Notes under the pieces: model-generated
Seen by the model: the letters and a program-made list of their open reading frames with translations, nothing else
Told to the model about the DNA's origin: nothing
The model's database searches: none
NCBI RefSeq assembly: GCF_024972735.1
Contig: NZ_CP087723.1
Span: forward strand, 1,054,001 to 1,118,000
DNA length: 64,000 bases
Direction: 5' to 3'
Origin: Halalkaliarchaeum sp. AArc-CO
Lineage (GTDB): Archaea; Halobacteriota; Halobacteria; Halobacteriales; Haloferacaceae
In this document: positions 25,999 to 40,503 of the stretch, one piece after another
Position numbering within the stretch: the stretch's first letter is position 1
Layout: every line of letters starts with the position of its first letter
Translations under genes and position numbers: made by a program

Positions 25999-27669
25999 TC
26001 AGTCGGTGTTCGTGGGGTCCCGTCGTTCGTCCGTCTGTTTTTCGTCGGCGACGTCGGCGGCCAGTGACTGGCTCGTGCGCTCGTCCGGGTCGCCGTGTCC
26101 GCCGCCGCCGGGCGTGCGGACGGTTACCGTCGTTCCAGCTTCGATCTCGACGGTTGTCTTTGCGGGGACTGGGTCGCCGTCGATGGAGTTCTCGCCGGTG
26201 GCGCCGTTCCCGCCGCCGGCGACGCCGCTGGGGGCGTACCGTCGCCGTTCCGAGAGCAGCGACACCGTAGCGTCCGACTCGACGGTCACGACCCGCTCGA
26301 GGCCGAGCCCGCCGCGGAACCGGCCTACTCCGCCAGAGTCGGGTCGCAGCGCGTATCGTTCGATCCACATCGGATACTCGGTTTCGATCGACTCGACGGG
26401 CGTGTTCAGCGTGTTCGTCATCCCCACCTGGACGCCGTCCATCCCGTCCCGATCGCTCCGTGCGCCGAACCCGCCGCCGATCGTCTCGTAGTAGGTGAAC
26501 GAGCCGTCCCGGGCACCGATCGTCAGGTTGTTCATCGTCCCCTGTCCCTGTGCCGGCACTCGATCGGGGGCAGCCTGGGCGAGTGCGAGGAACGTTACAT
26601 CGGTGATCCGTTGGCTGGTCTCGACGTTTCCGCCGACGACCGCCGCGGGAGGACGAGGGTTCAAAAGCGAGCCCTCCGGGGCACGAACGGTCACGGGCTC
26701 GTAACAGCCGTGATTCGGCGGAATTTCGGGATCCGTGACACATCGGACGACGAAGTAGACTGCGCTTTTGGCGACCGACAGCGGCGCGTTCACGTTTCCC
26801 GGAACCTGAGCTGCGGTCCCCCCGAAGTCCACATCGACGCGCGATCCGTCGATCGTGACCGTCGCGTGGATCGGCACGTCCTCGTCGCTTACTCCGTCAC
26901 CTTCGAGGACGTCCCGCGCTTCGAACTCACCGTCCGGGAGGCCGTCGATCTCGGATTCGACCCGGCTCCGGGAGTAGTCGATGACGGCGTCGAACCCCTC
27001 GATAACCTGTCCGGTGCCGTGTTCTTCGAGGAGATCGCCGAGCCGAGTTTCGGCCCGCTGGTTCGCGGCGAGCTGCGCCTGCAGGTCTCCCCGGCGCTCC
27101 CCGGCGTTTCGAACGTTCGAGAGCAGAAGTTCCAGGACGTCCGCCACTGGGTCGCCGTCCTCGACGAGCTTCGTCGGCGGGATCCGGAGCCCCTCCTGGT
27201 AGATCTCCCGGGCGCCTGCGGGCATGCTCCCCGGCGCCATTCCACCGACGTCGGCGTGATGGGCCCGCGACACCGCATAGCCGATCACGTCCCCCTCGGG
27301 TGCGACCGGCGAAACGAGTGTGACGTCCGGGAGATGTGTCCCGCCCGTGAACGGATCGTTGAGCGCGTACACGTCGCCCGGTTCCGGCTCCAGCTTTCGG
27401 ACCGCCGCCACCGCCTCCGGCATCGCCCCGAGGTGGACCGGAATGTGTTCGGCCTGTGCGACCATCCGACCGTCGGCGTCGAAAAGCGCCGTCGAACAGT
27501 CCCGCCGCTCCTTGATGTTTGGCGAGTACGCCCCCCGGATCAGCGTTTGACCCATCTCCTCGGCGACGCTTTCCAGCTGGTTGCGAAACACCTCCAGGGT
27601 CACGGGGTCGATCCCGGATTCGGTGGTCCCGCCGCCGAGTTCGCTGGTCTCGTCGGATCGATCGCTCAT
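25999..27669 (-). CDS. hyuB: Hydantoinase/oxoprolinase B subunit
   Basis: A 556-residue HyuB subunit which, with HyuA, forms an ATP-dependent N-methylhydantoinase or 5-oxoprolinase-type amidohydrolase (related also to acetone carboxylase subunits). It begins with DPVTLEVFRNQLESVAEEMG. It continues with the family segments ERRDCSTALFDADGRMVAQ, HIPVHLGAMP and NDPFTGGTHLPDV. A glycine-rich C-terminal stretch is present (GGGFGARSDRDGMD, then TPGGGGHG). It overlaps hyuA by four bases. The true substrate cannot be read from the sequence. No dedicated transporter is on the same strand, but an importer lies divergently beyond hyuA. Confidence 0.9.
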   Translation of the reverse strand: MSDRSDETSELGGGTTESGIDPVTLEVFRNQLESVAEEMGQTLIRGAYSPNIKERRDCSTALFDADGRMVAQAEHIPVHLGAMPEAVAAVRKLEPEPGDVYALNDPFTGGTHLPDVTLVSPVAPEGDVIGYAVSRAHHADVGGMAPGSMPAGAREIYQEGLRIPPTKLVEDGDPVADVLELLLSNVRNAGERRGDLQAQLAANQRAETRLGDLLEEHGTGQVIEGFDAVIDYSRSRVESEIDGLPDGEFEARDVLEGDGVSDEDVPIHATVTIDGSRVDVDFGGTAAQVPGNVNAPLSVAKSAVYFVVRCVTDPEIPPNHGCYEPVTVRAPEGSLLNPRPPAAVVGGNVETSQRITDVTFLALAQAAPDRVPAQGQGTMNNLTIGARDGSFTYYETIGGGFGARSDRDGMDGVQVGMTNTLNTPVESIETEYPMWIERYALRPDSGGVGRFRGGLGLERVVTVESDATVSLLSERRRYAPSGVAGGGNGATGENSIDGDPVPAKTTVEIEAGTTVTVRTPGGGGHGDPDERTSQSLAADVADEKQTDERRDPTNTD

Positions 27670-29663
27670 GTGACCGCCTCCATCCGAAGCGCGCCCTCCT
27701 CCGTGACCGTCCCACGCCAGTCGGGCGGAACCACCGTCGTACTCTCGGCCTGCTCGAGGATCGCCGGCCCGTCGACTACGGTCCCCGCAGCGACGGCGCC
27801 CCGGTCGAACACGGTCGCGTCGCGCTCGCCACTTTCCGGGAAGTAGGCGGGGCGCGTCCCGAGCACGGGATCCCCCTCGCCCCCGGCGTGTCGGACGGTC
27901 GGAGTCTCGCGGGTGACTGTTGCGGTCGTCCGGAGCGTGACGCCCTCGACGGTCTCCTCGAGCGCGTAGCCGTAGGCTGTCTCGTGGGCCTCGTGGAACC
28001 GGTCTGTGACCATCTCGGGATCGAACGTCTCTCCGACGGGAACGGTGAGCTCGAAACTCTGGCCGGAGTACCGACAGTCGATCGCGCGTTCTAACCGTGC
28101 ACGATCCGGATTCGAAACGTCCGCAAGCGCCTCCTCACGGAGCTCCTCGTAGACGCTTTCGATCCGATCGGCGTCGGCGTCCACGATCTCGGTTTTGATG
28201 GTTCTCGCCGCGTCGTGGCTCTCGTCGGCCGCAAGCAGGCCGAACGCCGAGAGCACGCCGGCAGGCTTTGGGACAGTCACCCGTTCGATGTCGAGAGCGT
28301 CCGCCAGGGCGGCGGCGTGCATCGGACCCGCGCCGCCGAAGGCGACCAGCCCGAAGCGTCGGGGATCGTGCCCGCGCTCGACGGTCACTGCGCGAATCGC
28401 CCGGGTCATCGTCGCGTTCGCGACCCGATAGACGCCGCGTGCCGCCTCTCTGGCGTCGGGGAGTCCCGCCCGGTCGGCGAGTTCCGAAAGCGCTGCCTTC
28501 GCCGCATCGACGTCGAGGGTGAGCTCCCCGCCCAGCGCCGTTTCGGGGCCGACGTAGCCGAGCACGACGTTCGCGTCGGTCACCGTCGGTTCCGATCCCC
28601 CGCGGCCGTAGCAGGCGGGACCCGGATTCGCGCCGGCGGAACGTGGACCCACCCGGAGTGCCCCGCCCTCGTCGACCCAGGCGATCGATCCACCGCCTGC
28701 ACCGACTGTGTTCACGTCGACCATCGGGGTTCGGATCGGGATCCCGTCGATCTCAGCGTCGGTCGTCCGTTCGGCGGAGCCGTCCCGGACGAGGCTCACG
28801 TCAGTAGAGGTACCGCCCATGTCGAAGGTGACCAGGCCGTCGCACTCTGCGGTGGCGGCCGCGCCGACCACTCCCGCCGCGGGGCCGGAAAGCACCGTCG
28901 TCACCGCGTGGTTCCTGACGGTCTCGGCGTCGGCGATCCCCCCGTTTGCCTGCATTATCTGTGGGGAGGGGAGTCCCGCCGCCGTCGCCCGTTCGGTGAG
29001 TCGTCCCACGTAGCCGTCGATCGCCGGCCGCACGTAGGCGTCGACGGCGGTCGTGGCGGTCCGCTCGAACTCTCGAAACTCTGCGAGCACCTCGTGGGAG
29101 ACCGACACCGAAACCTCGAGTTCCGCACGGAGGATCCGCGCGATCTCCCGTTCGTTTTCTGGATGTGCGTACGCGTGCAGAAGGCAGACGGCGACGCTTT
29201 CTGCGCCCGCATCGTCGATCCGGGCGGCGACGTCGCGAACTTCGTCGGCGTCGACCGGACGCTCGATTCCCTCGGCGGTCGCCCGTTCGTCGATTTCGAA
29301 CCGTCGCCTGCGGGGCACGATCGGGGTCGGCTTTTCGACGTCGAGATCGTACAGAGAGGGTCGGTCTTGCCGTCCGATCTCCAGGACGTCTCGGAACCCC
29401 GCGGTCGTCACGAGCGCCGTCCTCGCCCCGTCTCGCTCGAGCAGCGCGTTCACCGAGACCGTCATCGCGTGGACGAACTCTTCGACAGTACCGGGTTCGA
29501 TCCCTCCCTCTTTGCACGCCTTCCGGATCCCGTCGAGGACGCCGGCGCTTTGATCGTCGGTCGTCGGAACCTTCGCCGTCACGAGCTGTCCCTCGACGAG
29601 CAACGCCACGTCCGTGAACGTGCCGCCGACGTCGACGCCGACTGCGGTCGTTGTTTCGGTCAT
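27666..29663 (-). CDS. hyuA: Hydantoinase/oxoprolinase A subunit
   Basis: A 665-residue HyuA subunit, an ASKHA-fold ATPase. The N-terminal phosphate motif is VGVDVGGTFTDVALL. TFDMGGTSTDVSLV gives the second phosphate loop and AFGGAGPMHAAALA the adenosine segment. Start at 29663 (MTETTTAVGVD) is preferred; an ATG three codons upstream (29672) is possible. It forms an operon with hyuB by an ATGA overlap. ATP hydrolysis is expected to activate the amide carbonyl of a cyclic substrate such as hydantoin or 5-oxoproline. Confidence 0.9.
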   Translation of the reverse strand: MTETTTAVGVDVGGTFTDVALLVEGQLVTAKVPTTDDQSAGVLDGIRKACKEGGIEPGTVEEFVHAMTVSVNALLERDGARTALVTTAGFRDVLEIGRQDRPSLYDLDVEKPTPIVPRRRRFEIDERATAEGIERPVDADEVRDVAARIDDAGAESVAVCLLHAYAHPENEREIARILRAELEVSVSVSHEVLAEFREFERTATTAVDAYVRPAIDGYVGRLTERATAAGLPSPQIMQANGGIADAETVRNHAVTTVLSGPAAGVVGAAATAECDGLVTFDMGGTSTDVSLVRDGSAERTTDAEIDGIPIRTPMVDVNTVGAGGGSIAWVDEGGALRVGPRSAGANPGPACYGRGGSEPTVTDANVVLGYVGPETALGGELTLDVDAAKAALSELADRAGLPDAREAARGVYRVANATMTRAIRAVTVERGHDPRRFGLVAFGGAGPMHAAALADALDIERVTVPKPAGVLSAFGLLAADESHDAARTIKTEIVDADADRIESVYEELREEALADVSNPDRARLERAIDCRYSGQSFELTVPVGETFDPEMVTDRFHEAHETAYGYALEETVEGVTLRTTATVTRETPTVRHAGGEGDPVLGTRPAYFPESGERDATVFDRGAVAAGTVVDGPAILEQAESTTVVPPDWRGTVTEEGALRMEAVT

Positions 29664-29926
29664 ATCACGCAATTAGCCGGACGTTACCCGATACAGTTCC
29701 ACGAACGTCGTCATATTTCACTCGTCCCTCGAAGTTCCGCTTGCCGTTGTGAGGGGAATGTTCGACCGTCGTCACCGACCGGTTCCGAGTCACAATTTAT
29801 CGTGCACCGATACAGTCGCACCCTACATATAGGTCCCACTTGATCCCCCACTCGCGACATAGGCTAAACAAGTGAAGTTGATGTAATACAAAACATTTTT
29901 AGTATCGATATCTGTCGGGTTACACA
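29664..29926. other. Divergent intergenic region hyuA / ABC importer
   Basis: This 263-base AT-richer space has no gene that I can support. It contains an inverted repeat CACTTG / CAAGTG spaced by 26 bases (about 29837-29874) and a TATA-like atttttagta (about 29893-29903), about 25-30 bases before the importer's ATG 29927. The inverted repeat sits just upstream of that box, where an activator or a repressor could bind. Confidence 0.5.
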
Positions 29927-31096
29927 ATGACGGAAATCCCACAGGGACGTGAAACCCGGGAACCGGATGGGACCGTATCGGATGACCGAGATGGTCAACG
30001 GATCCGGCGGCGAACTGCCCTCTGTTGTCTCGGAACCACGGCTGTCGTCGGACTTTCAGGCTGTGCGAGTCTGTTGCCGTCCGGCGATGCGGCAGGGGAG
30101 CGAACTATCACTGACGTCGTCGGCAGGACGGTCGATCTTCCCGAGTACGCAGACCGGATCGTGTGTGTCGGCGGTGGAACGCTCAGACAGATCGCGTACA
30201 TGAAGGCCGCGGACCGCGTTGTCGGTGTCGAGAACATTCCCGAGCAGGCGCTCGACGAAATCCCCTACCTTCTGGCCAATCCCGGCCTCGGAGAGCTCCC
30301 GATCGTCGGCGAGAGCGGGATGGACAGGGACGGCAACGTCGAACAGATTCTCGAGGTCGATCCGGACGTGATCTTCTTCAACGGGGACAGCTCGCGTGCA
30401 GACGAGTTACGGCAGCGAACGAACACACCGGTCGTCGTCATCGGTGTCGACAGTATACTCGAGGAATCCGGTCGAGAATTACTGTACGACACGTGGGAGA
30501 CTCTCGGTCAGACGCTCCGGAAAGAAGACCGCACAGCGGAGCTGCAGAGGTTCCTGGGGGAGGTAGTTTCGGATCTGAACGACCGCACCGACGACATCTC
30601 GGCTGCGGAGCGAAAAAGCGCCTACGCCGGTGCGTTTCGGTTCGGGGGTGCTCACGGACTGTCGACGACGCGCGGTGACACGACGATGTTCCGCTTTTCA
30701 AACGTCGACAACGCCATCGACGAGCTCGAGGTCGATCAACCCTCCGTAGCGTTGGGTCACGAGCGACTGCTGGAGGAAGATCCGGAGACCATATTCGTCG
30801 ACGTGATGAGCAGCGAGAGAGTTCGAGGAGAGATCGACGAAAACCCGGAGCTCGGGTCCCTCACGGCGGTCGAACAGGGACGCGTATATACCGTCTTGCC
30901 GGTGTATCGTGACATGCGTAACTTCGGGTCGATCCTGTCGAACGCCTACTACGTCGGAATGACGCTTTATCCCGACCGATTCGTGGATGTCGATATCGAA
31001 TCCCGAACGGACGACATCTTCGAGACGCTTCTGAATGCTCCCCTATACGAACGAATTAACCAGGAGTTCCCCGATGTCTTCCGACCACTTCTCTGA
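29927..31096 (+). CDS. ABC importer substrate-binding lipoprotein (iron-chelate/cobalamin class)
   Basis: A 389-residue secreted solute-binding protein of the BtuF/FepB class. The N-terminus has a twin-arginine-like RIRRRTALCCLGTTAVVG followed by lipobox LSGC. The mature protein starts with TITDVVGRTVDLPEYADRIV, the signature of periplasmic-binding-protein-like domain II. Two lobes are joined by the long helix expected of this class. The ligand could be a ferric siderophore, heme or cobalamin. The next two genes complete the importer: the permease ATG lies inside its last codons, and the ATPase follows. Confidence 0.88.
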   Translation: MTEIPQGRETREPDGTVSDDRDGQRIRRRTALCCLGTTAVVGLSGCASLLPSGDAAGERTITDVVGRTVDLPEYADRIVCVGGGTLRQIAYMKAADRVVGVENIPEQALDEIPYLLANPGLGELPIVGESGMDRDGNVEQILEVDPDVIFFNGDSSRADELRQRTNTPVVVIGVDSILEESGRELLYDTWETLGQTLRKEDRTAELQRFLGEVVSDLNDRTDDISAAERKSAYAGAFRFGGAHGLSTTRGDTTMFRFSNVDNAIDELEVDQPSVALGHERLLEEDPETIFVDVMSSERVRGEIDENPELGSLTAVEQGRVYTVLPVYRDMRNFGSILSNAYYVGMTLYPDRFVDVDIESRTDDIFETLLNAPLYERINQEFPDVFRPLL

Positions 31097-32147
31097 GCAG
31101 GTCGGTGAGCAGTCGGGCTTTCGGAACCACCGCGAATCTGTCCGTCGGAAAATCGGGTTCCTCGTCGGGACAACTGTGTTGTTGGGGATCCTCTGGGTCG
31201 TCGGGGTCGCAGTCGGCTCCGTCTCCTATCCCCTCGGCGACGTGGTGGCTGCACTCGTTCGCGATGGCCCCGAGTCACGACAGTTGGCTATCTGGCACGT
31301 TCGAATCCCTCGGGTGCTCGCGGCGACCCTCGCCGGCGGTGGGCTTGCAGTCGCCGGTGCGGCGATGCAGTCTGTGCTTCGGAACCCACTGGGCGCACCG
31401 TTCACGCTCGGTATCTCGCATGCAGCAGCCTTCGGTGCGGCTGTTACGATTGCGTTCGGCGGGTTCGGCGTCAGCGCGGAGTTCCTCACGCTGTCTGTGC
31501 AGACGATCGGAGCGTTCGTCGGTGCAATGACCGCAACCGTGGCGATTCTCTTGCTGGTGACCTACCGGGAGGCAACCCCCGAAACGTTGATTCTCACGGG
31601 GGTGGCGATCGGATCGCTGTTCAACGCCGGGCTCGCACTGATCCAGTATTTCGCCACTGACACGGAGGTTGCAGAGATAGTCTACTGGACGTTCGGCGAC
31701 GTGAGCCGGGCTGCCTGGGACGAAATCGGATTCATGTTCGCAATATTCGTTCTGGGGCTGGGTTACTTCGTGTACAACGGTTGGAATTACGACGTGCTCG
31801 ATGCCGGCACCGAGACCGCGCTGACGCTCGGCGTCAACGTCGAATCACTCCGAATCAGGGGGATGGCGATCGCGTCGCTCGTGACCGCAGTAATGATCTC
31901 GTTTGTCGGAATTATCGGGTTCGTCGGTCTCGTTGCACCACACATCGTCCGGATGGTCATCGGCGGAACTGAGAGATATCTACTTCCGGCGTCGGCGCTC
32001 GTCGGGGCAGCGTTGCTCGTCGCAGCGGACACGTTCGCTCGGACGATCGTTGCCCCGATCGTGCTGCCAGTAGGGATCGTCACGTCGTTTCTGGGCGCAC
32101 CACTGTTCCTCTATTTGACAGTCGAAGGGAAGGACTACTGGAGATGA
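31074..32147 (+). CDS. ABC importer permease (FecCD/BtuC family)
   Basis: A 357-residue inner-membrane permease with about ten helices. RIPRVLAATLAGGGLAVAGA and QSVLRNPLGAPFTLGISHAA are classic FecCD signatures, and GFVGLVAPHIVRMVIG is the cytoplasmic loop contacting the ATPase. ATG 31074 has caggag upstream and lies within the binding-protein gene's last 23 bases. It overlaps the ATPase gene by four bases. Likely a homodimer with two copies of the ATPase. Confidence 0.92.
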   Translation: MSSDHFSEQVGEQSGFRNHRESVRRKIGFLVGTTVLLGILWVVGVAVGSVSYPLGDVVAALVRDGPESRQLAIWHVRIPRVLAATLAGGGLAVAGAAMQSVLRNPLGAPFTLGISHAAAFGAAVTIAFGGFGVSAEFLTLSVQTIGAFVGAMTATVAILLLVTYREATPETLILTGVAIGSLFNAGLALIQYFATDTEVAEIVYWTFGDVSRAAWDEIGFMFAIFVLGLGYFVYNGWNYDVLDAGTETALTLGVNVESLRIRGMAIASLVTAVMISFVGIIGFVGLVAPHIVRMVIGGTERYLLPASALVGAALLVAADTFARTIVAPIVLPVGIVTSFLGAPLFLYLTVEGKDYWR

Positions 32148-32917
32148 CCCTCGAGATCTCCGATCTCACGTTTCGATACGACGATCTCACCGTCCTCGAT
32201 GGTGTGGACCTCACAGTCGAATCCGGGGAAATTGTCGGACTGCTCGGACCGAACGGCTCCGGGAAGAGCACGCTTCTCAAGTCGATTCACCGGATTCACG
32301 ATCCCGACAGCGGGACGATCGAAATAGACGGTCGGAGCGTTACGGAGTATCGACCCAAGGAACTCGCACGGGCGGCCAGCTACGTCCCACAGCACGGAGA
32401 CAGCGCCTTTCCGGCGACGGTGTTCGAAACGGTTCTGCAGGGACGACGGCCACACGGAAGCTGGTCGCCCAGCCGGGATGACCGAAAGGCGGCGATCGAT
32501 GTCCTCGAGCGTCTCGACATCGAACGCTTCGCCGCCCGCCGGATGAGCGACCTGAGCGGCGGACAGCAGCAGAAGGTTCGGTTTGCGCGTGCGTTGGTCG
32601 GCGATCCATCCGTGATGGTGCTCGACGAACCGACGAGTGCGCTCGATCTCAAACATCAGATCGCCGTGATCGATCTCGTTGCGGAGTACGTCCGCGAACA
32701 GGAGGTGGCCGCTATCGCCGCAATGCACGATCTTAATCTCGCATCCCGATACTGTAATCGCATCGCCTTGCTTCACGACGGGGACATCCACGCCGTCGGT
32801 TCGTCGGAGATCCTCACTCCCGAACTGATCAAAATTGTCTACGATGCTGACGTCTCTATCGTTCACCACAAGGGCCAGCGTATCGTGGTACCGGACGCAG
32901 CTACGGATACGGCCTAG
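32144..32917 (+). CDS. ABC importer ATPase (FepC/BtuD family)
   Basis: A 257-residue ATPase energising the permease. It has Walker A LLGPNGSGKST, Q-loop YVPQHGD, signature LSGGQQQK, Walker B VMVLDEPTSALD and the switch histidine in AAMHDLNLA. C-terminal residues run past the core by about 40, as usual in the family. It ends the three-gene importer operon. Downstream, 83 bases separate it from the convergent VTT-family gene. Confidence 0.93.
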   Translation: MTLEISDLTFRYDDLTVLDGVDLTVESGEIVGLLGPNGSGKSTLLKSIHRIHDPDSGTIEIDGRSVTEYRPKELARAASYVPQHGDSAFPATVFETVLQGRRPHGSWSPSRDDRKAAIDVLERLDIERFAARRMSDLSGGQQQKVRFARALVGDPSVMVLDEPTSALDLKHQIAVIDLVAEYVREQEVAAIAAMHDLNLASRYCNRIALLHDGDIHAVGSSEILTPELIKIVYDADVSIVHHKGQRIVVPDAATDTA

Positions 32918-33000
32918 GCTGGAATCGACAAGGGACGGAGCCGGGAAATTGACAGGCGTGCTTCGGAGACGCCTGACTGGCTACGGACAGCCGTTTTCCT

Positions 33001-33564
33001 TCAGTCAACGACGGAGTATGCGCCCCCGACGACCGTCAGGACGAGCAACAGTCGGGCGATCGTGGCGAGGAACGTCGTGGCGGCGAACACGAACGGTCGG
33101 TTGTCCAGGACGCTGAACGCGTATATCGTCGTGGTCTCCGGAAGAAACGGGATCGCGATGGCGATTCCGAGGCCGAGATAGCTGTATCGCTGGACGAGAC
33201 CGACGAGCGTCTGCTGTTTGAACTGTTTGTAGTAGGGAACCCGTTCGAAAAACCGGACGACAGGTCCCGATCGACTGACCCCGTAGCCGATCCGGAGCGC
33301 GATCAAACTGCCGGCGGCTTTCCCCGCCGCGGACGTCACGATGACGAGAGGAAACGACACGTACCAGGGATACGCGAGGGCGAACGGGACGACCAGGACT
33401 GCCTCGGAGGGGAACGGGAGGAACGCGGCGACGACGACGGCATACAGGAATACGACCGCCAGCAGTATCCCTGGGGTCGCGATCGTCGAACTGGCCAACT
33501 CAGTTAACACGATACGAACGTTCACTGTCGGACGATATACATTGTGTGTTTGATTCGTCGACAT
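33001..33564 (-). CDS. VTT/DedA-family membrane protein
   Basis: A 187-residue polytopic protein. AAFLPFPSEAVLVVPFALAYP matches the VTT (SNARE-associated/DedA, YqaA-like) core motif in part, followed by a SAAGKAAGSLIALRIGYGVS segment as in that family. Members are implicated in lipid scrambling and membrane homeostasis. ATG 33564 is used; an ATG three codons upstream (33573) is possible. It is divergent from the lipoprotein gene (45-base gap). Confidence 0.75.
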   Translation of the reverse strand: MSTNQTHNVYRPTVNVRIVLTELASSTIATPGILLAVVFLYAVVVAAFLPFPSEAVLVVPFALAYPWYVSFPLVIVTSAAGKAAGSLIALRIGYGVSRSGPVVRFFERVPYYKQFKQQTLVGLVQRYSYLGLGIAIAIPFLPETTTIYAFSVLDNRPFVFAATTFLATIARLLLVLTVVGGAYSVVD

Positions 33565-33609
33565 TGCCAACAACTGTTAAGGAGGGCGCGACGAACGGAA
33601 GTACGAGCG

Positions 33610-34311
33610 ATGAAACGTCGACGGATTCTCAGCGGCGTCCTGCTGGCTGTGACTGCGGGATGTACGGAGTTCGATGTCACAGAAGAGCCCGGAGGGAGCA
33701 GTTCCGACGGCGAGCACGCCGGATCGAGTGACTCTAACGGTGCGGCAACAGAACACGACCGAACGGAAGGGGACGGATCGACAAACGCACACACCGAGGA
33801 GCAAACACCCACCGACGAGACCGATCCCACCGATCCAGGCGACACTGAGGAGACTGACGGTGAATCGACAGACGTCGCGGGTGCGTCCCGGCTACCCGAT
33901 CCGGAGCAGTTCGACCAGGATTACGTCGTGGTCGAATCCGCGTACAGCGATCCTGGAGCTGTCGAAGTCACGAGGACGTACTACTACGACGGGGTATCGA
34001 CTGACCGGCCGGACACCGTCACTGCGACGATTATTCCGATCGAAACGGTGTCGCAGGCGGAGTCTCGATACGAACAGATCCTTCGGGATACGCGGTCCTC
34101 GCTGGACGCCACGGAGCGTGAGCTCGTGTTGACCGACGACCTCGTCGCGATGGAATTTCAGGCACGTCCCAACGACGACTACTTCACCGTCGTCGTCGCC
34201 AGGGATGGGACGGACGTGGGCGTCGTTACGGCCGACGACAGCGACGCGTACGATCCGACGATAGCTGCCACGGTTGTCGCAACGATGTTGTCAGAATCCG
34301 AGTCGGAGTGA
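33610..34311 (+). CDS. Secreted lipoprotein, tail-to-tail with the giant surface protein
   Basis: A 233-residue protein. KRRRILSGVLLAVTAGC is a basic signal ending in a lipobox with Cys18. A Ser/Thr/Glu-rich linker to about residue 90 precedes a compact C-terminal domain (about 95-230) with PDTVTATIIPIETVSQAESR. Its stop codon is only two bases from the stop of the convergent giant nuclease-like protein. The gene is not in the place or orientation of a classical immunity gene, but it is the nearest neighbour. I do not recognise the C-terminal domain. Confidence 0.65.
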   Translation: MKRRRILSGVLLAVTAGCTEFDVTEEPGGSSSDGEHAGSSDSNGAATEHDRTEGDGSTNAHTEEQTPTDETDPTDPGDTEETDGESTDVAGASRLPDPEQFDQDYVVVESAYSDPGAVEVTRTYYYDGVSTDRPDTVTATIIPIETVSQAESRYEQILRDTRSSLDATERELVLTDDLVAMEFQARPNDDYFTVVVARDGTDVGVVTADDSDAYDPTIAATVVATMLSESESE

Positions 34312-34313
34312 CG

Positions 34314-37300
34314 CTATCGTTGCCGAACGAGCGGTCGGTGCGCCCCCTGGCCGGCTGACTGCTGTGGATCGGTCGAGGGACCCAGGTTCGTAGACGGTTC
34401 GAGCCGGAACGGGATCCGCCCGTTGGTTTCGTACGCGACTCGCACCCGGACGGAGTCACCGAACTCCTCTGTAAGCGCGGCTTTTATCCGTTGCACCTCG
34501 CCGACGTTCGATTCGTCGGCCTGTCGAATTCGAAATTCGAGCCGGTTCGGGCTGAGCCCGGGCGTCTCTCGGGCGTACTCGGTGTAAAATTCCATCTGTT
34601 CGACAGCCCCCGCCGGCGTCGTCGACGATTCGGTGGCTTTGACTTCGATCAGCCGTCCGTCCGAGGTCACGAGATCTATCTCTCCTCTGGCCGCGTCACT
34701 CCCGGGATCCCTGACGACGCGCCCGATCTCGTCGACGTTGTCGGGCCCGAGCTTCGCGGCCAGGTGCAGCTCCGCGGCCGTCCCTTTCAGGTTCTCGATG
34801 TCGTCGACGTCGTGTCGTGTCGCCGCCCTCCAGATCTCGTCGAAGGTTCCTTCGGCTCCGTCCGACGCCCGCATTCCCTGGGTGTTCCGCAACACTGCGG
34901 CGTTCTCGAACAGTGCTCCGGCGTCGATCGTATCGCCGCCGGTAGTCGTGAACGGCTCCCTGTCTGCAAGCCGGATACCGACCTCGAGTTCGTCGATCTG
35001 GTCTGCCCGGATGAAGCCGTCCTCGACGAGGACTTCGAGGTGGTGTGGGTCGATCCCTTCGTCACTGACCGCCCTGATGGCGGCCGGGGAGGTCCCCTGA
35101 TCGACGAGATTTCTGGCCGAGCGGAGGTCCGCCCCGTTTTCGGCGAGCCGAACGACCTCTGCCCGAGTGAAGTGGCCGTTGTCGACCAGCGTACGCGCCG
35201 GGTTCTGGCCCTGACTGTTGTGTCGGTAGTAATCGAGGACGATGTCGTAGCGCTGGTTGGTCGACAGCTCCCGACCGGACAACAGACGGGTCTGAGACAG
35301 CGTGTCTCCCAGTGCATACCGGTCTGCCCCCCGAAGCTGAGCGCTCATCGCGTCGGTTCGCCCGACGCGAACGAGGGTTTCGGCCCACTTCTGTGAGAGG
35401 CTCTGTCGGAGTGCGCCGCGGGTGAGCGACCGGGAGACGCTTCCGACGCTTTTGCCGACCGCCTGTGCCGGTTTACTGGCGAGATCCAGAGCGATCCATC
35501 CACCGCCGTACGCCATGAGTGTCCTGTCGTCGGTGTCCTTCCCACGCCTGAACTGCCCGTAATGCTCGGTGAATGCGTATCCGATGAAGTGGCCGGTGCG
35601 ATACTCCAGCGAATCCCGATCGACGTACGATACACCGATCTCGTCGAAGTAGAAGTCGGCGTTGTCGTACGGATCCACCCCCTCCATCGTCCCCTCGGAG
35701 ATGCCGATCTGCGTCAGTTCGGGCAACTGCTTCGACGGCATCGACATCGCGGTTCGAGCGCCGAACCGGTAGAACGGTTCCTGGTTAAAATCGTGCGAAG
35801 ACGTCGTTTCTTCGCCGCTGTCGTGAACCGTGTACGACTCCTCTGACCGAGTTCGCTCCCACGTTTCTACGTTTGCAGTGACCGCGACGAGGCCGGTTTC
35901 CTCCCGGAGGTAGATCTGCGTCGTTCCGGTGTGGCCATCCCGGGCGAGCTGATCGAGGACGTTCTCGATCCGTTGAATGCGGGTTCCTTCCTCCGGTATT
36001 CGTTCGAACTCCTCGAACGCCTCGTGGGCCTCGTAATCACGGAGGCCGGCCTCCTCGGGGTCCGGAAGCGGCCGTAACGAGAGTTCTCGCCCGGAGGAAT
36101 CTCCAGTGATAATGATCGGTTCGGCCATGTACTTCTCGACTTCGAGAGTGCGTTGTGTCCGAATCGGCTGATCGAACAGATCGACGTACCCGGTTGCGTC
36201 AGTCGTCGCGGTTTCTCCAGTTTCTCTGACGGTGACCTCCGCCCGGTTGAGCGGTTCGCCGGTTTCCGCATCGGTGAGCTGTATCGTCTCGCGAACTGTC
36301 TCTCGAAGATGAAAGTCAGTCTGACTCATCAGTGGGCGCTGCTGGAGTGGGTCGATGAGCCGCCCTTGGCCCTCGAACCCGTCTTTGTCCACACTGACTG
36401 ACAGGGTCACGGCAGTCGGGACGTCACGAAACGTGAACTCTCCTGTCCCGGTTTTGTCCCGTGTTATCTCCATCTCGTTTGATAACAGTAGTCCGTCTCC
36501 ACGGACGGTTCCATGGACGGTAACGTCGTCTAGCGGTTCGCCGGTTTCCCAGTGGGAGATCGTAATCGTGACGTCGGTGAACTTCTCTGCGAACACGGTG
36601 TGGCCGAGCCACTCGGTCCGTTCCGAGCCGATCGTGACTCCGGCCCTGACTCGTTTGTCGACAGCGGACTCGGGAAGATCGTCCCACCGGAGCGTGATCG
36701 TCTTCGTTTCCCCCGCCGGAATGACGTGTTCCGAACCGTCCGGCTCGCCGACGATCTCGCCGTCCCGTTCGACGACGCCGGAGAGAGATGTTACGACTTC
36801 CCGGTCCGTGGGGTTCGTGACTGCAAGTTCTACTGCGTCCTCGCCGACCTCATAAAAAGGATCGAGTCGTTCGGTTCGGGAGACGACGAGTTCGTCGGCT
36901 CCGACGTCGGTCGGGTCGACCTCGAACGCGCTGCTGTCGTACTTCTCTGCAACCGGTGTCTCCGACTGGGAGTCGCTCTCGTTACGGACTGCCAGTTCGA
37001 CGCCGTACTCGCCGGATCTGGCGTCGGATTCGACGGTCCACGGGAGCGAAACCAGTTGCGTCGCTCCGGGTCGAAGCGTAACTGTTTCTTCGAGGGTGAC
37101 GTCCTCGTTTGCCCTACTGTCGTGTCCGGAGGTCTCGATATCGGGTCCCAGAACTGTGTAGTGGAGTACAAACGTTTTGTCATCGTCGCCAGTGTTCGCG
37201 ATTTCTGCCGTCGTTTCGACGGTCTCGCCCGCCGAAAACGGTCCGTCTTCGGTTTCGAGCCGAATGATTTCGGCGTCTACCTCGACCTCCTCGACGAAGA

Positions 37301-40115
37301 CTGCTGTGAGTTTGCGGTCTCGGTCGGCGACGACAGCGATCGACGGTTCCTCGGTGTCCACGTCCGAAACGTCGCCTTCCCATCGATCGAACTCGTATCC
37401 ATGATCGGATTGGGCCGTAAGTTCGACTTCAGTCCCCTCCTCGTAGCTTTGGATCGTTCCGAGTGTAGACGTTCCCGGCGGATCGATCGCGACCGCACCG
37501 CTTCCTTGCGTTTCGACGGTGAATGAATGCTCGACGGCCTTCTCGACGAGGAAGGCACCGTTCTCGTGGTCGCTGTCCAGGCGGTTGTCCGCGGCTGAAC
37601 TGGCGAAGACGTTGCCGCCGGCGTCGTAGCTGCCGTCCGACATCGAGTCGGTTATTTCGAGGGAGAACGTCTCGGTGGTCGTTTCACCGGGTTCGAGTTC
37701 GACTGTCGTTTCTCCGGCGTAGTGGCTCCAGGTTCCATCCGGGCCGCGAGCGATCCCATCGATCAGAAACTCGTTTTCGACGTTGCCGACGTTTTCGACT
37801 GTCACGTCGATAGACGCCACTTCTCCCGGCGCGTAGCTGTCGCCTGCCACCGTTACGTCGGTAACTTTCGCGCCGACCTCCGCCGGCTCACGGAACGTGG
37901 CGGTAATCGTTCGATCCCGATCGATCGTCACCGTTATCGTTTCGGCGGTGGCGTCGTGGGACGGCACGTCGCCTTCCCATCGGTCGAACTCGTAGTCGGA
38001 GTCGGGGAACGCGATCAGCTCTACTTCCGTTCCTTCCTCGTAGGTCTGTGTCGTTCCGAGCGTGCTCATCCCTGGCGGATCGATACCGATTCCACCGTTT
38101 CCGCCGGATTCCACTGACAGTGTGTATTCAGCGACGTCCTCCTCGACGGTGACTGTCCACTCGGCGGCGGCGTCGTTATAGGTGCCGCTGCTGTCGAACA
38201 CGTCCACTTCGATGGAGTAGGTTCCGGGCTCTTCGAAGCGGTACGACCAGGTGTCGGTGTCGGCACTTCCGTCCAGTCCATACGTGGCTTCCTGGAACGA
38301 CCCGTCGACGTACCATTCCGTTCCGTGGAGATCTCCATCCGGATCCTCCGCCCCAACGCTGAACGTCACCAGTTCGCCTTCCTGAATGGTGAGCGATTGT
38401 TCGGGACTGTCGGTCCACGACTCTGGGGGTCCGCCGGCTTCCTCCTGGAACGTGGCGGTAATCGTGCGGTCCCGATCCATCGTTACCGTTATCGTTTCGG
38501 CGGTGGCGTCGTGTGAGGACACGTCGCCGTCCCACCGATCGAACTCGTAGTCGGTGTCGGGGAACGCGATCAGCTCTACTTGAGCCCCTTCCTCGTACGT
38601 CTGTGTCGTTCCGAGCGTGCTCATCCCTGGCGGATCGACTCCGATCCCCCCACCGTCCTCGGACGATATCGACAGCGTGTACTCCTCAACATCTTCTTCG
38701 ACGGTGACTGTCCACTCGGCGGCGGCGTCGTTATAGGTGCCGCTGCTGTCGAACACGTCCACTTCGATGGAGTAGGTTCCGGGCTCTTCGAAGCGGTACG
38801 ACCAGGTGTCGGTGTCGGCACTTCCGTCCAGTCCATACGTGGCTTCCTGGAACGACCCGTCGACGTACCATTCCGTTCCGTGGAGATCTCCATCCGGATC
38901 CTCCGCCCCAACGCTGAACGTCACCAGTTCGCCTTCCTGAATGGTGAGCGATTGTTCGGGACTGTCGGTCCACGACTCTGGGGGTCCGCCGGCTTCCTCC
39001 TGGAACGTGGCGGTAATCGTGCGGTCCCGATCCATCGTTACCGTTATCGTTTCGGCGGTGGCGTCGTGGGACGGCACGTCGCCTTCCCATCGGTCGAACT
39101 CGTAGTCGGTGTCGGGGAACGCGATCAGCTCTACTTCCGTTCCTTCCTCGTAGGTCTGTGTCGTTTCCAGCGTGCTCATCCCTGGCGGATCGACGCCGAT
39201 CCCCCCACCGTCCTCGGACGATATCGACAGTGTGTACTCCTCGACATCCTCCTCCACGAGGAAGGCCCCGTTCTCGTGGTCGCCGTCCAGGCGGTTGTCC
39301 GCGGCCGGACTGGCGAAGACGTTGCCGCCGGCGTCGTAGCTCCCCTCCGGCATGGAGTCGGTTATTTCGAGGGAGAACGTTTCGGTGGTCGTTTCACCGG
39401 GTGCGAGTTCGACTGTCGTTTCTCCGGCGTAGTGGCTCCAGGTTCCATCCGGGCCGCGAGCGATCCCATCGATCAGAAACTCGTTTTCGACGTTGCCGAC
39501 GTTTTCGACTGTCACGTCGATAGACGCCACTTCTCCCGGCGCGTAGCTGTCGCCTGCCACGGTGACGTCTGTCGTTCGTGCGTCGATTACTTCTCTGACT
39601 TCGAGGGCGTCTTGGTCGACTTCGGAATCGTACCAGTGGTCCTTTCGTTCGGAGTAGAACACGCCGGCACCTGCGGTGTAGGTCCCTTCTGTCGCGTCCT
39701 CGGGGATCTGGACCGATAACGTCACCGTCTGTTCCTCGCCGGAGAACCAGCCGTCGTCGAGATGTACGGTCGTCCCTTCCCCGGTTATCCAGTCGCCGTC
39801 CGGGTCTCGAACGCTCGCGTCGACGTAGAAGTCGTGGCTCGTCTCTCCGGTGTTTTGAATCGTCACCTCGATCGGAACGGCGTCCCCCGGCGCGTAGCTA
39901 CCATCGACCGCTTCCACGTCGGTGATCTCTGCATCCGTGTCCTCGACTGAGAACACGTTCTCGAAGTCGGGTTCGTACTGGACTGAACCCTCGGCGCTGC
40001 CCGCGGTGGCAGCAGACGCGATAACACCCGTCCCCAGAACGAGGGCAAATATGGAAGCGACGAAAACGACGGTTGCGACGGTTTCAACCCCGGAACGACG
40101 GTCTCGTCTCGACAT
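34314..40115 (-). CDS. Giant repetitive surface protein with C-terminal PD-(D/E)XK nuclease-like domain
   Basis: A 1933-residue protein with an N-terminal export/anchor helix (about residues 10-40). CARDB-like beta domains follow, including two near-identical copies (185-287, 755-857). Bacterial-repeat (InlB B-like) domains with DYEFDRWEGD signatures alternate with PKD-like domains between about 300 and 940. Further CARDB-like and carboxypeptidase-regulatory-like domains run to about 1322. After a helical stretch and a hydrophobic segment (1532-1548) come short helical repeats (1628-1712). The last 154 residues (1780-1933) look like a nuclease: Glu in AAELHLAAKLG, Asp in GEIDLV, and Glu and Lys in LIEVKA. 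The layout resembles long polymorphic-toxin or contact-dependent proteins. ATG 40115 fits a TATA-like box at 40152-40145; an ATG at 40145 would overlap that box. Toxicity is inference. Confidence 0.75.
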   Translation of the reverse strand: MSRRDRRSGVETVATVVFVASIFALVLGTGVIASAATAGSAEGSVQYEPDFENVFSVEDTDAEITDVEAVDGSYAPGDAVPIEVTIQNTGETSHDFYVDASVRDPDGDWITGEGTTVHLDDGWFSGEEQTVTLSVQIPEDATEGTYTAGAGVFYSERKDHWYDSEVDQDALEVREVIDARTTDVTVAGDSYAPGEVASIDVTVENVGNVENEFLIDGIARGPDGTWSHYAGETTVELAPGETTTETFSLEITDSMPEGSYDAGGNVFASPAADNRLDGDHENGAFLVEEDVEEYTLSISSEDGGGIGVDPPGMSTLETTQTYEEGTEVELIAFPDTDYEFDRWEGDVPSHDATAETITVTMDRDRTITATFQEEAGGPPESWTDSPEQSLTIQEGELVTFSVGAEDPDGDLHGTEWYVDGSFQEATYGLDGSADTDTWSYRFEEPGTYSIEVDVFDSSGTYNDAAAEWTVTVEEDVEEYTLSISSEDGGGIGVDPPGMSTLGTTQTYEEGAQVELIAFPDTDYEFDRWDGDVSSHDATAETITVTMDRDRTITATFQEEAGGPPESWTDSPEQSLTIQEGELVTFSVGAEDPDGDLHGTEWYVDGSFQEATYGLDGSADTDTWSYRFEEPGTYSIEVDVFDSSGTYNDAAAEWTVTVEEDVAEYTLSVESGGNGGIGIDPPGMSTLGTTQTYEEGTEVELIAFPDSDYEFDRWEGDVPSHDATAETITVTIDRDRTITATFREPAEVGAKVTDVTVAGDSYAPGEVASIDVTVENVGNVENEFLIDGIARGPDGTWSHYAGETTVELEPGETTTETFSLEITDSMSDGSYDAGGNVFASSAADNRLDSDHENGAFLVEKAVEHSFTVETQGSGAVAIDPPGTSTLGTIQSYEEGTEVELTAQSDHGYEFDRWEGDVSDVDTEEPSIAVVADRDRKLTAVFVEEVEVDAEIIRLETEDGPFSAGETVETTAEIANTGDDDKTFVLHYTVLGPDIETSGHDSRANEDVTLEETVTLRPGATQLVSLPWTVESDARSGEYGVELAVRNESDSQSETPVAEKYDSSAFEVDPTDVGADELVVSRTERLDPFYEVGEDAVELAVTNPTDREVVTSLSGVVERDGEIVGEPDGSEHVIPAGETKTITLRWDDLPESAVDKRVRAGVTIGSERTEWLGHTVFAEKFTDVTITISHWETGEPLDDVTVHGTVRGDGLLLSNEMEITRDKTGTGEFTFRDVPTAVTLSVSVDKDGFEGQGRLIDPLQQRPLMSQTDFHLRETVRETIQLTDAETGEPLNRAEVTVRETGETATTDATGYVDLFDQPIRTQRTLEVEKYMAEPIIITGDSSGRELSLRPLPDPEEAGLRDYEAHEAFEEFERIPEEGTRIQRIENVLDQLARDGHTGTTQIYLREETGLVAVTANVETWERTRSEESYTVHDSGEETTSSHDFNQEPFYRFGARTAMSMPSKQLPELTQIGISEGTMEGVDPYDNADFYFDEIGVSYVDRDSLEYRTGHFIGYAFTEHYGQFRRGKDTDDRTLMAYGGGWIALDLASKPAQAVGKSVGSVSRSLTRGALRQSLSQKWAETLVRVGRTDAMSAQLRGADRYALGDTLSQTRLLSGRELSTNQRYDIVLDYYRHNSQGQNPARTLVDNGHFTRAEVVRLAENGADLRSARNLVDQGTSPAAIRAVSDEGIDPHHLEVLVEDGFIRADQIDELEVGIRLADREPFTTTGGDTIDAGALFENAAVLRNTQGMRASDGAEGTFDEIWRAATRHDVDDIENLKGTAAELHLAAKLGPDNVDEIGRVVRDPGSDAARGEIDLVTSDGRLIEVKATESSTTPAGAVEQMEFYTEYARETPGLSPNRLEFRIRQADESNVGEVQRIKAALTEEFGDSVRVRVAYETNGRIPFRLEPSTNLGPSTDPQQSAGQGAHRPLVRQR
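37546..37851 (-). repeat. CARDB-like repeat, copy 2
   Basis: A 306-base block nearly identical to 39256-39561, offset 1710 bases. It encodes a beta domain beginning with VAGDSYAPGEVASIDVTV. Most differences are single bases, pointing to recent duplication or gene conversion. Confidence 0.85.
38101..39210 (-). repeat. Two tandem 555-base copies of a two-domain unit
   Basis: The units 38101-38655 and 38656-39210 each encode 185 residues: one bacterial-repeat (DYEFDRW) domain plus one PKD-like domain. From 38150 to about 38500 the match to 38705-39055 appears essentially perfect by eye. Such identity suggests recent duplication or ongoing conversion. An assembly collapse or expansion here is possible. 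Confidence 0.88.
39256..39561 (-). repeat. CARDB-like repeat, copy 1
   Basis: Partner of 37546-37851 in the same gene. It lies on the N-terminal side of the 555-base units, so the two CARDB-like copies bracket the bacterial-repeat and PKD-like series. Confidence 0.85.
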
Positions 40116-40144
40116 ACACTGACTACCACCATGGACAGATGACA

Positions 40145-40152
40145 CTTATACC
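40145..40152 (-). promoter_or_regulatory. TATA-like box for the giant surface protein gene
   Basis: Read on the minus strand this is ggtataag. It is about 30 bases before ATG 40115, which favours that start over the ATG at 40145. Confidence 0.55.
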
Positions 40153-40209
40153 TTTTCAGGAAATAATCGAGTGTGTGAATGTCCGCGAGTGAAGACTATA
40201 TTACTATTT

Positions 40210-40503
40210 CTAGCCCAGGCGGCCGGTGTCGATGTCGACCCCAGGCGGGGTGACGACGAGAAAGCCCCGGAAGTGCATCAGTTCGCCACCCATGTCCCTG
40301 ATCTCTCTGGCGAACCCCGCGGCCAGATCGTTCAGGTCCCCTTCTACCGCGAGCACGAGCGTCTTCCCGCCCTGTATCTCCGCGATCCACTCCTGCGGAT
40401 CGGTCGTCCCGTCGAGCCGTGCCAGCACCACGACGCCGTCCTTCTCAATCATCGCGTCCAGCTGTTCTTCCGCGTTCCGCAGGTCCAGGTCGAACTCGCC
40501 CAT
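40210..40503 (-). CDS. Small conserved haloarchaeal protein (DUF5779-like)
   Basis: A 97-residue soluble acidic protein starting MGEFDLDLRNAEEQL. It has a regular alternation of strands and helices (DGVVVLARLDG, KTLVLAVEGDLNDLA) and ends near FLVVTPPGVDIDTG. I recall this pattern as a haloarchaeal family of unknown function, DUF5779, but this is not verified. It is upstream of and divergent from leuA, with a strong palindrome in the shared intergenic region. No function can be assigned. Confidence 0.7.
   Translation of the reverse strand: MGEFDLDLRNAEEQLDAMIEKDGVVVLARLDGTTDPQEWIAEIQGGKTLVLAVEGDLNDLAAGFAREIRDMGGELMHFRGFLVVTPPGVDIDTGRLG

Follow-up and report, generated by a model that had tools for sequence, protein, structure and literature searches.

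A giant secreted haloarchaeal protein with a PD-(D/E)XK-type tip and a convergent lipoprotein gene: a candidate antagonistic surface toxin

Polymorphic toxin systems have a characteristic layout, in which a variable secreted protein ends in a nuclease tip, a small variable partner gene lies next to it, and tip cassettes occur in tandem (PMC3482391, Zhang et al. 2012; for archaea, PMC8416519). One of their nuclease domains, Tox-REase-3, has the published signature [KR]ExD, K, ExQxK (PMC3482391). Archaeal systems of this kind were catalogued by Makarova et al. (2019, mBio), a study described in PMC8416519 and cited in PMC11566945. According to PMC8416519, the toxin parts found most often in archaea are DNase and RNase domains. 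As a predicted class, archaeal polymorphic toxins are already known. For toxin–immunity pairs of the contractile-injection (T6SS-like) type from Halogeometricum borinquense, experiments in Haloferax volcanii demonstrated toxicity as well as protection (PMC11566945). The original prediction for the locus described here called archaeal cases poorly characterized, which is fair, but the 2019 catalogue exists and some haloarchaeal pairs have been tested (PMC11566945). In archaeal antagonism, predictions dominate over tests.

The window, that is, the whole stretch of 64,000 nucleotides analyzed here, corresponds to bases 1054001-1118000 of the larger contig in a haloarchaeal-type genome of 3.18 Mb. 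The original prediction had placed in it a giant reading frame with an export/anchor helix and beta-domain repeats. The reading frame is real and lies where it was placed, on the minus strand (Table 1); an alternative GTG start at 40145 would give a protein of 1943 aa (34314-40145, minus strand). Hydropathy analysis located a hydrophobic stretch at residues 7-45, as expected for the helix, and nothing else resembling a TM segment further toward the C-terminus. The repeats were also recovered: the Pfam matches listed (25 of 29) include four of InlB type (Flg_new_2) and two of PKD_4, together with CARDB/NEW3-type and carboxypeptidase-regulatory-like domains, over about residues 60-1350. Asp and Glu make up 23% of the stalk residues. 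At the DNA level, the stalk contains 300-nt repeat copies that are 97% and 95% identical (within window positions 37290-39539), which suggests recent duplication or gene conversion inside the gene. The helical zone between stalk and tip had no Pfam match, and the scan detected no bacterial pre-toxin domain in it. The protein thus combines the features by which polymorphic toxins are recognized, namely a secreted N-terminus, a repeat stalk and a C-terminal domain of toxin type.

Table 1 Coordinates of the features discussed in the text (window positions unless a locus is named).
Feature	Position	Strand	Details and basis
Variable block: hydantoinase A/B, FecCD-type ABC transporter, VTT-domain, lipoprotein and toxin genes	26007..40213		Comparison with G001
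Lipoprotein, 233 aa, candidate immunity protein or partner	33610..34311	+	Lipobox TAGC, long acidic linker, 140-aa domain predicted as Mog1/PsbP-like
Giant secreted protein, candidate antagonistic surface nuclease	34314..40115	-	ATG start, 1933 aa
Export/anchor segment, hydrophobic, residues 1-45	39981..40115	-	Hydropathy, sequence
Acidic beta-domain stalk, residues ~60-1370	36006..39940	-	Pfam, DNA repeats
Helical pre-toxin zone, residues 1371-1740	34896..36005	-	Sole other carrier is a Halorubellus salinus protein
PD-(D/E)XK-type tip, residues 1771-1890, E1782/D1814/E1824/K1826	34446..34805	-	Motif, alignment, HMM
Immunity-like genes, examples	L005:8706-9383, L006:9130-9825, L052:10082-10822; also in L038, L039		After tip genes

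The tip of the giant protein reads G-T-A-A-E1782 ... G-E-I-D1814-L-V ... L-I-E1824-V-K1826-A, so that the Glu, the Asp (GEIDLV) and the Glu-Val-Lys (LIEVKA) originally pointed out are indeed present. An HMM built from 24 other haloarchaeal tips, with the window protein and its closest relative excluded, scored the giant protein at 47.9 bits (E 1.5e-13); since the best of 2000 shuffles reached only 9.1 bits, the motif is beyond chance. Conservation of these residues among orthologues had been proposed as one test of the prediction, and the outcome is in its favor. The positions of D1814, E1824 and K1826, which form the D...ExK core, are invariant in 26/26 aligned tips, and the position of E1782 is kept in most of them; the family alignment therefore carries, in order, the Glu, Asp and (D/E)xK that define PD-(D/E)XK nucleases. 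The HMM score and the invariant D/E/K residues together identify the window tip as a true member of a haloarchaeal tip family. Its overall identity to the tip of a Halorubellus salinus protein is about 28%, and the catalytic E, D, E and K are intact in both.

No Pfam family, Tox-REase-3 (PF15647) included, matched the window tip, and two haloarchaeal members of the tip family matched Tox-REase-3 with E ~0.009 at best. The motif and these marginal matches of two relatives point to a restriction-endonuclease fold, and metal-dependent nucleic acid cleavage is the activity predicted for the tip. An AlphaFold2 model computed from a two-sequence input was poor (mean pLDDT 50), and the rows listed by Foldseek and VIA-align for it contained no restriction-endonuclease chain, a result that is uninformative in either direction. 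RadC headed the VIA rows for this model (Z 6.3), a likeness that we dismissed as untrustworthy because the model is too poor. PDB matches obtained by sequence search were chance matches only.

We compared the window tip with tips of other haloarchaea. Among 293 related genomes, an initial search yielded two weak matches (G219 and G247), both in long proteins terminated by the motif. A three-sequence tip profile then matched in 25 of 392 genomes of the order, chance matches included; those in G035, G293 and G462 were set aside as chance, either because they lay at the wrong place in unrelated ORFs or because the motif was absent. After their removal, the tip always lay at the C-terminal end or close to it, in ORFs that range from ~90 to 2901 aa; many of these ORFs start with an N-terminal signal segment. 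The stalks differ, the tip being carried by giant secreted proteins, by shorter ORFs and in tandem cassettes. In one genome (G368), three successive tip genes are each paired with an immunity-like gene, so that this locus (L038, G368:C3 3187724-3191765) is a tandem toxin–immunity cassette array. The original prediction had suggested a search for tip swapping. Such variation is seen in the wider family, with one tip on various stalks and in tandem cassettes, but the helical zone of the window protein itself recurs in only one other genome, where it is joined to the same tip.

At all 25 of the other haloarchaeal loci, a count that omits the window, Halorubellus, the chance matches and a damaged locus in G427, an immunity-like gene on the same strand starts within ~30 bp of the tip gene, usually overlapping it or at most 15 bp off. 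The products have 204-250 aa (typically ~230 aa), apart from two of 382 and 416 aa, and typically carry versions of the motif LGRERVLxAPAWxVEELDDGGVFL. All 25 form one blastp network, and with leave-one-out HMMs they reach 40-255 bits, where shuffles do not exceed 13.6 bits. Pfam gave no match in the four proteins scanned, NCBIfam gave none in the 21 scanned, and the N-termini of the examples examined have no obvious signal sequence. Because a nuclease-tipped secreted protein, a small partner gene and tandem cassettes make up the polymorphic-toxin layout, we read the ~230-aa partners as probable immunity proteins. The pairing at 25/25 loci in turn suggests that the tip family probably acts as a toxin elsewhere.

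Several details of these loci deserve mention. The two longer immunity-like proteins, of 416 and 382 aa (L053:3678-4925 and L054:7757-8902), have an extra C-terminal part in common. In G219, an unrelated 268-aa gene without a Pfam match lies between two immunity-like genes (L006:9926-10732). The G427 tip gene (L051, G427:C19:23903-24184) contains LFFFKQKTAYEI, which we take to resemble a sequencing-adapter artefact; no partner gene was found there, and the locus is probably misassembled.

The window protein differs from these loci. No same-strand gene follows it in the window annotation, in agreement with the original prediction, and the convergent lipoprotein gene lies there instead. A profile of the immunity superfamily found no member in the source genome, whereas the same profile was positive in control genomes. 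As the partner is absent both downstream and genome-wide but present at 25/25 other loci, the window tip is a homologue of the tip family that stands outside the subgroup coupled to the ~230-aa partner. The helical zone has a single other carrier among the 392 genomes, Halorubellus salinus GX3 (G396), so this lineage has two known members only and its occurrence is rare and patchy. The Halorubellus protein, of 2162 aa, aligns over 905 columns (E 9e-42) and was the sole match of an alignment query against genome contigs. A tblastn search of plasmids and phages with the last 461 aa returned nothing, as did pattern scans with single sequences on viral and genomic contigs, and a stalk profile gave only weak matches to other repeat proteins. 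The Halorubellus toxin gene likewise has no same-strand gene behind it and likewise faces a convergent lipoprotein gene; the overlap of the two genes, at the 3' end of the toxin gene, is ~75 bases. Apart from the lipoprotein, the window and Halorubellus loci have no flanking gene in common.

In the window, two bases separate the end of the lipoprotein gene (34311) from the toxin stop (34314), the convergent arrangement that had been reported for it, and in the sole full-length relative the homologue is convergent too. The lipoproteins of window and Halorubellus are 22-23% identical and their domains ~22%; for the domains, the Smith-Waterman z of 7.0 exceeds all 1000 shuffles. At E < 1e-10 the domain family occurs in 3 of the 392 genomes, two of which are the toxin carriers and the third G029. 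The G029 gene (L079:10243-10806) adjoins an AT-rich stretch (49% GC in L079:10701-11500). Its product is the closest relative of the window lipoprotein (z 23) and is a lone copy, with no toxin or toxin remnant beside it. Hydantoinase genes lie near it, and also ~4 kb from the window lipoprotein gene. Separately, we saw no relatedness between the lipoprotein and the ~230-aa immunity superfamily.

A model of the 140-aa lipoprotein domain (mean pLDDT 71) was placed by Foldseek and VIA-align in the Mog1/PsbP-like group, where the PknH extracellular domain gave a Z of 11.1. Comparison with Tsi3 gave a Z of 10.1-10.5 and an rmsd of 2.9-3.0 over 105-106 aligned residues, at 11% identity. DcrB, LpqN and the Eag-type chaperones SciW and EagT6 rank after Tsi3; PknH, LpqN, DcrB and PsbP score about as Tsi3 does. 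Tsi3 is the bacterial T6SS immunity protein that pairs with the muramidase Tse3. As Eag proteins in turn serve as chaperones of toxins, both comparisons make a toxin-related function of the lipoprotein easy to imagine. The Mog1/PsbP-like group is, though, large and functionally mixed, unrelated sensors among it, and a common fold is no proof of function. An immunity role is plausible, though the closest relative of the lipoprotein stands without a toxin, and we hold it possible, at somewhat less than an even chance, that the lipoprotein is the immunity protein or a partner of the toxin. Such immunity would act outside the membrane, unlike that of the ~230-aa partners, since the examples of the latter have no obvious signal sequence.

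The toxin and lipoprotein genes share a genomic block (Table 1) that is missing at the matching place in G001, the sole same-genus genome compared (leuA product 96.5% identical). Similarity to G001 at the DNA level breaks off where the DUF5779 gene ends, immediately ahead of the toxin gene, and the left flank, up to ~26006, lies ~176 kb away from the other flank in that genome. The broken flanks thus define a variable block. The GC3 of the transporter, lipoprotein and toxin genes is 0.70-0.76 as against 0.84-0.87 in the adjacent leu/ilv genes, which fits acquisition, and we consider the block probably variable or acquired. A search for a tRNA at the block border found none in the window.

We propose the following model. 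The N-terminal segment would export, and possibly anchor, the giant protein, and the acidic Ig/PKD/InlB stalk would keep the tip distant from the producer cell. The helical zone could serve as a translocation or release module, and the PD-(D/E)XK tip would then enter a neighbour cell and cut nucleic acid there. The lipoprotein would shield the producer, probably from the membrane exterior, or serve the toxin otherwise. Nuclease action, delivery, toxicity and lipoprotein protection are all four steps that we infer. That the giant protein is an antagonistic toxin appears likely. For the complete reading, an archaeal polymorphic toxin that is secreted, stands out from the surface on a stalk and cuts nucleic acid in a neighbour with its nuclease tip, we have a slight preference. 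A further proposal, which we offer tentatively and as doubtful, is that the locus represents an archaeal toxin lineage of its own. In it, the adjacent cytosolic immunity gene would have given way to a convergent gene for a surface lipoprotein, which would block the tip on the outside, before it enters the cell. If true, weapon and shield would form a tail-to-tail module of two genes that moves among haloarchaeal families.

The lipoprotein may alternatively be read as a bystander that belongs to a metabolic or envelope locus, next to an antagonistic nuclease tip that has no dedicated immunity. The producer would then be safe through unfolded export and kin lacking the receptor, or through an unrelated protective gene. 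The main evidence for such a reading is that the lone G029 copy is closer to the window copy and that both lie near hydantoinase genes; the low identity between the window and Halorubellus copies also favors it. It has to contend with the fact that so rare a family is nevertheless the immediate convergent neighbour in both toxin carriers, and that nothing else nearby is common to the two loci; this linkage argument is a post hoc one, drawn from two loci. We consider a bystander lipoprotein unlikely. Even less probable is an extracellular nuclease that degrades free DNA for phosphorus and nitrogen or remodels the matrix, for which neither a target cell nor immunity would be necessary. An export segment is present, and a genome that lacks the usual cytosolic immunity gene fits an enzyme that is never active inside cells. 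A scavenger, however, needs neither the immunity-like genes that accompany the tip family at every other locus nor the short, stalk-less tandem tip genes that exist, and the rare, patchy distribution of the lineage also argues against it. The original prediction had left the choice between an antagonistic and a DNA-scavenging role. The occurrence of the tip family on giant secreted proteins with an immunity-like partner at 25/25 loci is strong indirect support for the former, whereas we found nothing in support of the latter.

The giant protein could, finally, be an adhesin or envelope protein that retains a decayed nuclease-like tip for binding. The poor tip model and the missing immunity superfamily would suit an inactive tip. 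Decay is unlikely, though, to have spared exactly the E, D, E and K that are intact in two tips of such low overall identity, and we regard an inactive tip as very improbable.

The locus and its relatives offer a clean comparison between tips accompanied by an apparently cytosolic immunity-like superfamily and a sister lineage with a surface lipoprotein. If the lipoprotein protects, immunity can operate on the outer side of the archaeal membrane, and where such toxins enter becomes testable. The tip family and the partner superfamily lend themselves readily to expression tests in Haloferax volcanii. Parts of either may already be contained in the catalogue of Makarova et al. (2019) under arCOG numbers; our literature search found no account of the convergent lipoprotein arrangement.

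Compared with described systems, the window tip is like Tox-REase-3 in carrying a PD-(D/E)XK-type motif and in being, by prediction, a nuclease of polymorphic toxins, but its residues are E, D, ExK in place of the signature quoted above. The lipoprotein resembles Tsi3 in its domain model and in being exported and membrane-anchored, as Tsi3 is. It differs in sequence (11% identity), its fold is common to PknH, LpqN, DcrB and PsbP, and Tse3 is a muramidase and not a nuclease. With CdiA, the giant protein has in common a long stalk and a nuclease tip at the C-terminus. Its repeats and its archaeal envelope are different, no CdiB or CdiI genes were seen alongside, and neither the filamentous-haemagglutinin repeats nor the TPS export domain of CdiA was among the Pfam matches listed (25 of 29). 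The Halogeometricum borinquense pairs are cases of haloarchaeal antagonism, in which a toxin gene is followed by an immunity gene. Those toxins are tied to a contractile injection system, whereas the window protein has its own export segment and long stalk, and no contractile-injection gene is among those examined between 24 and 45 kb of the window. From archaeal polymorphic toxins at large the window gene departs in having no same-strand immunity gene, its sole constant neighbour being a convergent surface lipoprotein gene, and in that no swapping of its own tip was seen (helical zone in two genomes). It agrees with them in being a long secreted multidomain protein, of the CARDB/PKD types known in Halobacteria, with a C-terminal nuclease tip, and the wider tip family agrees with them in its tandem tip cassettes and adjoining immunity-like genes.
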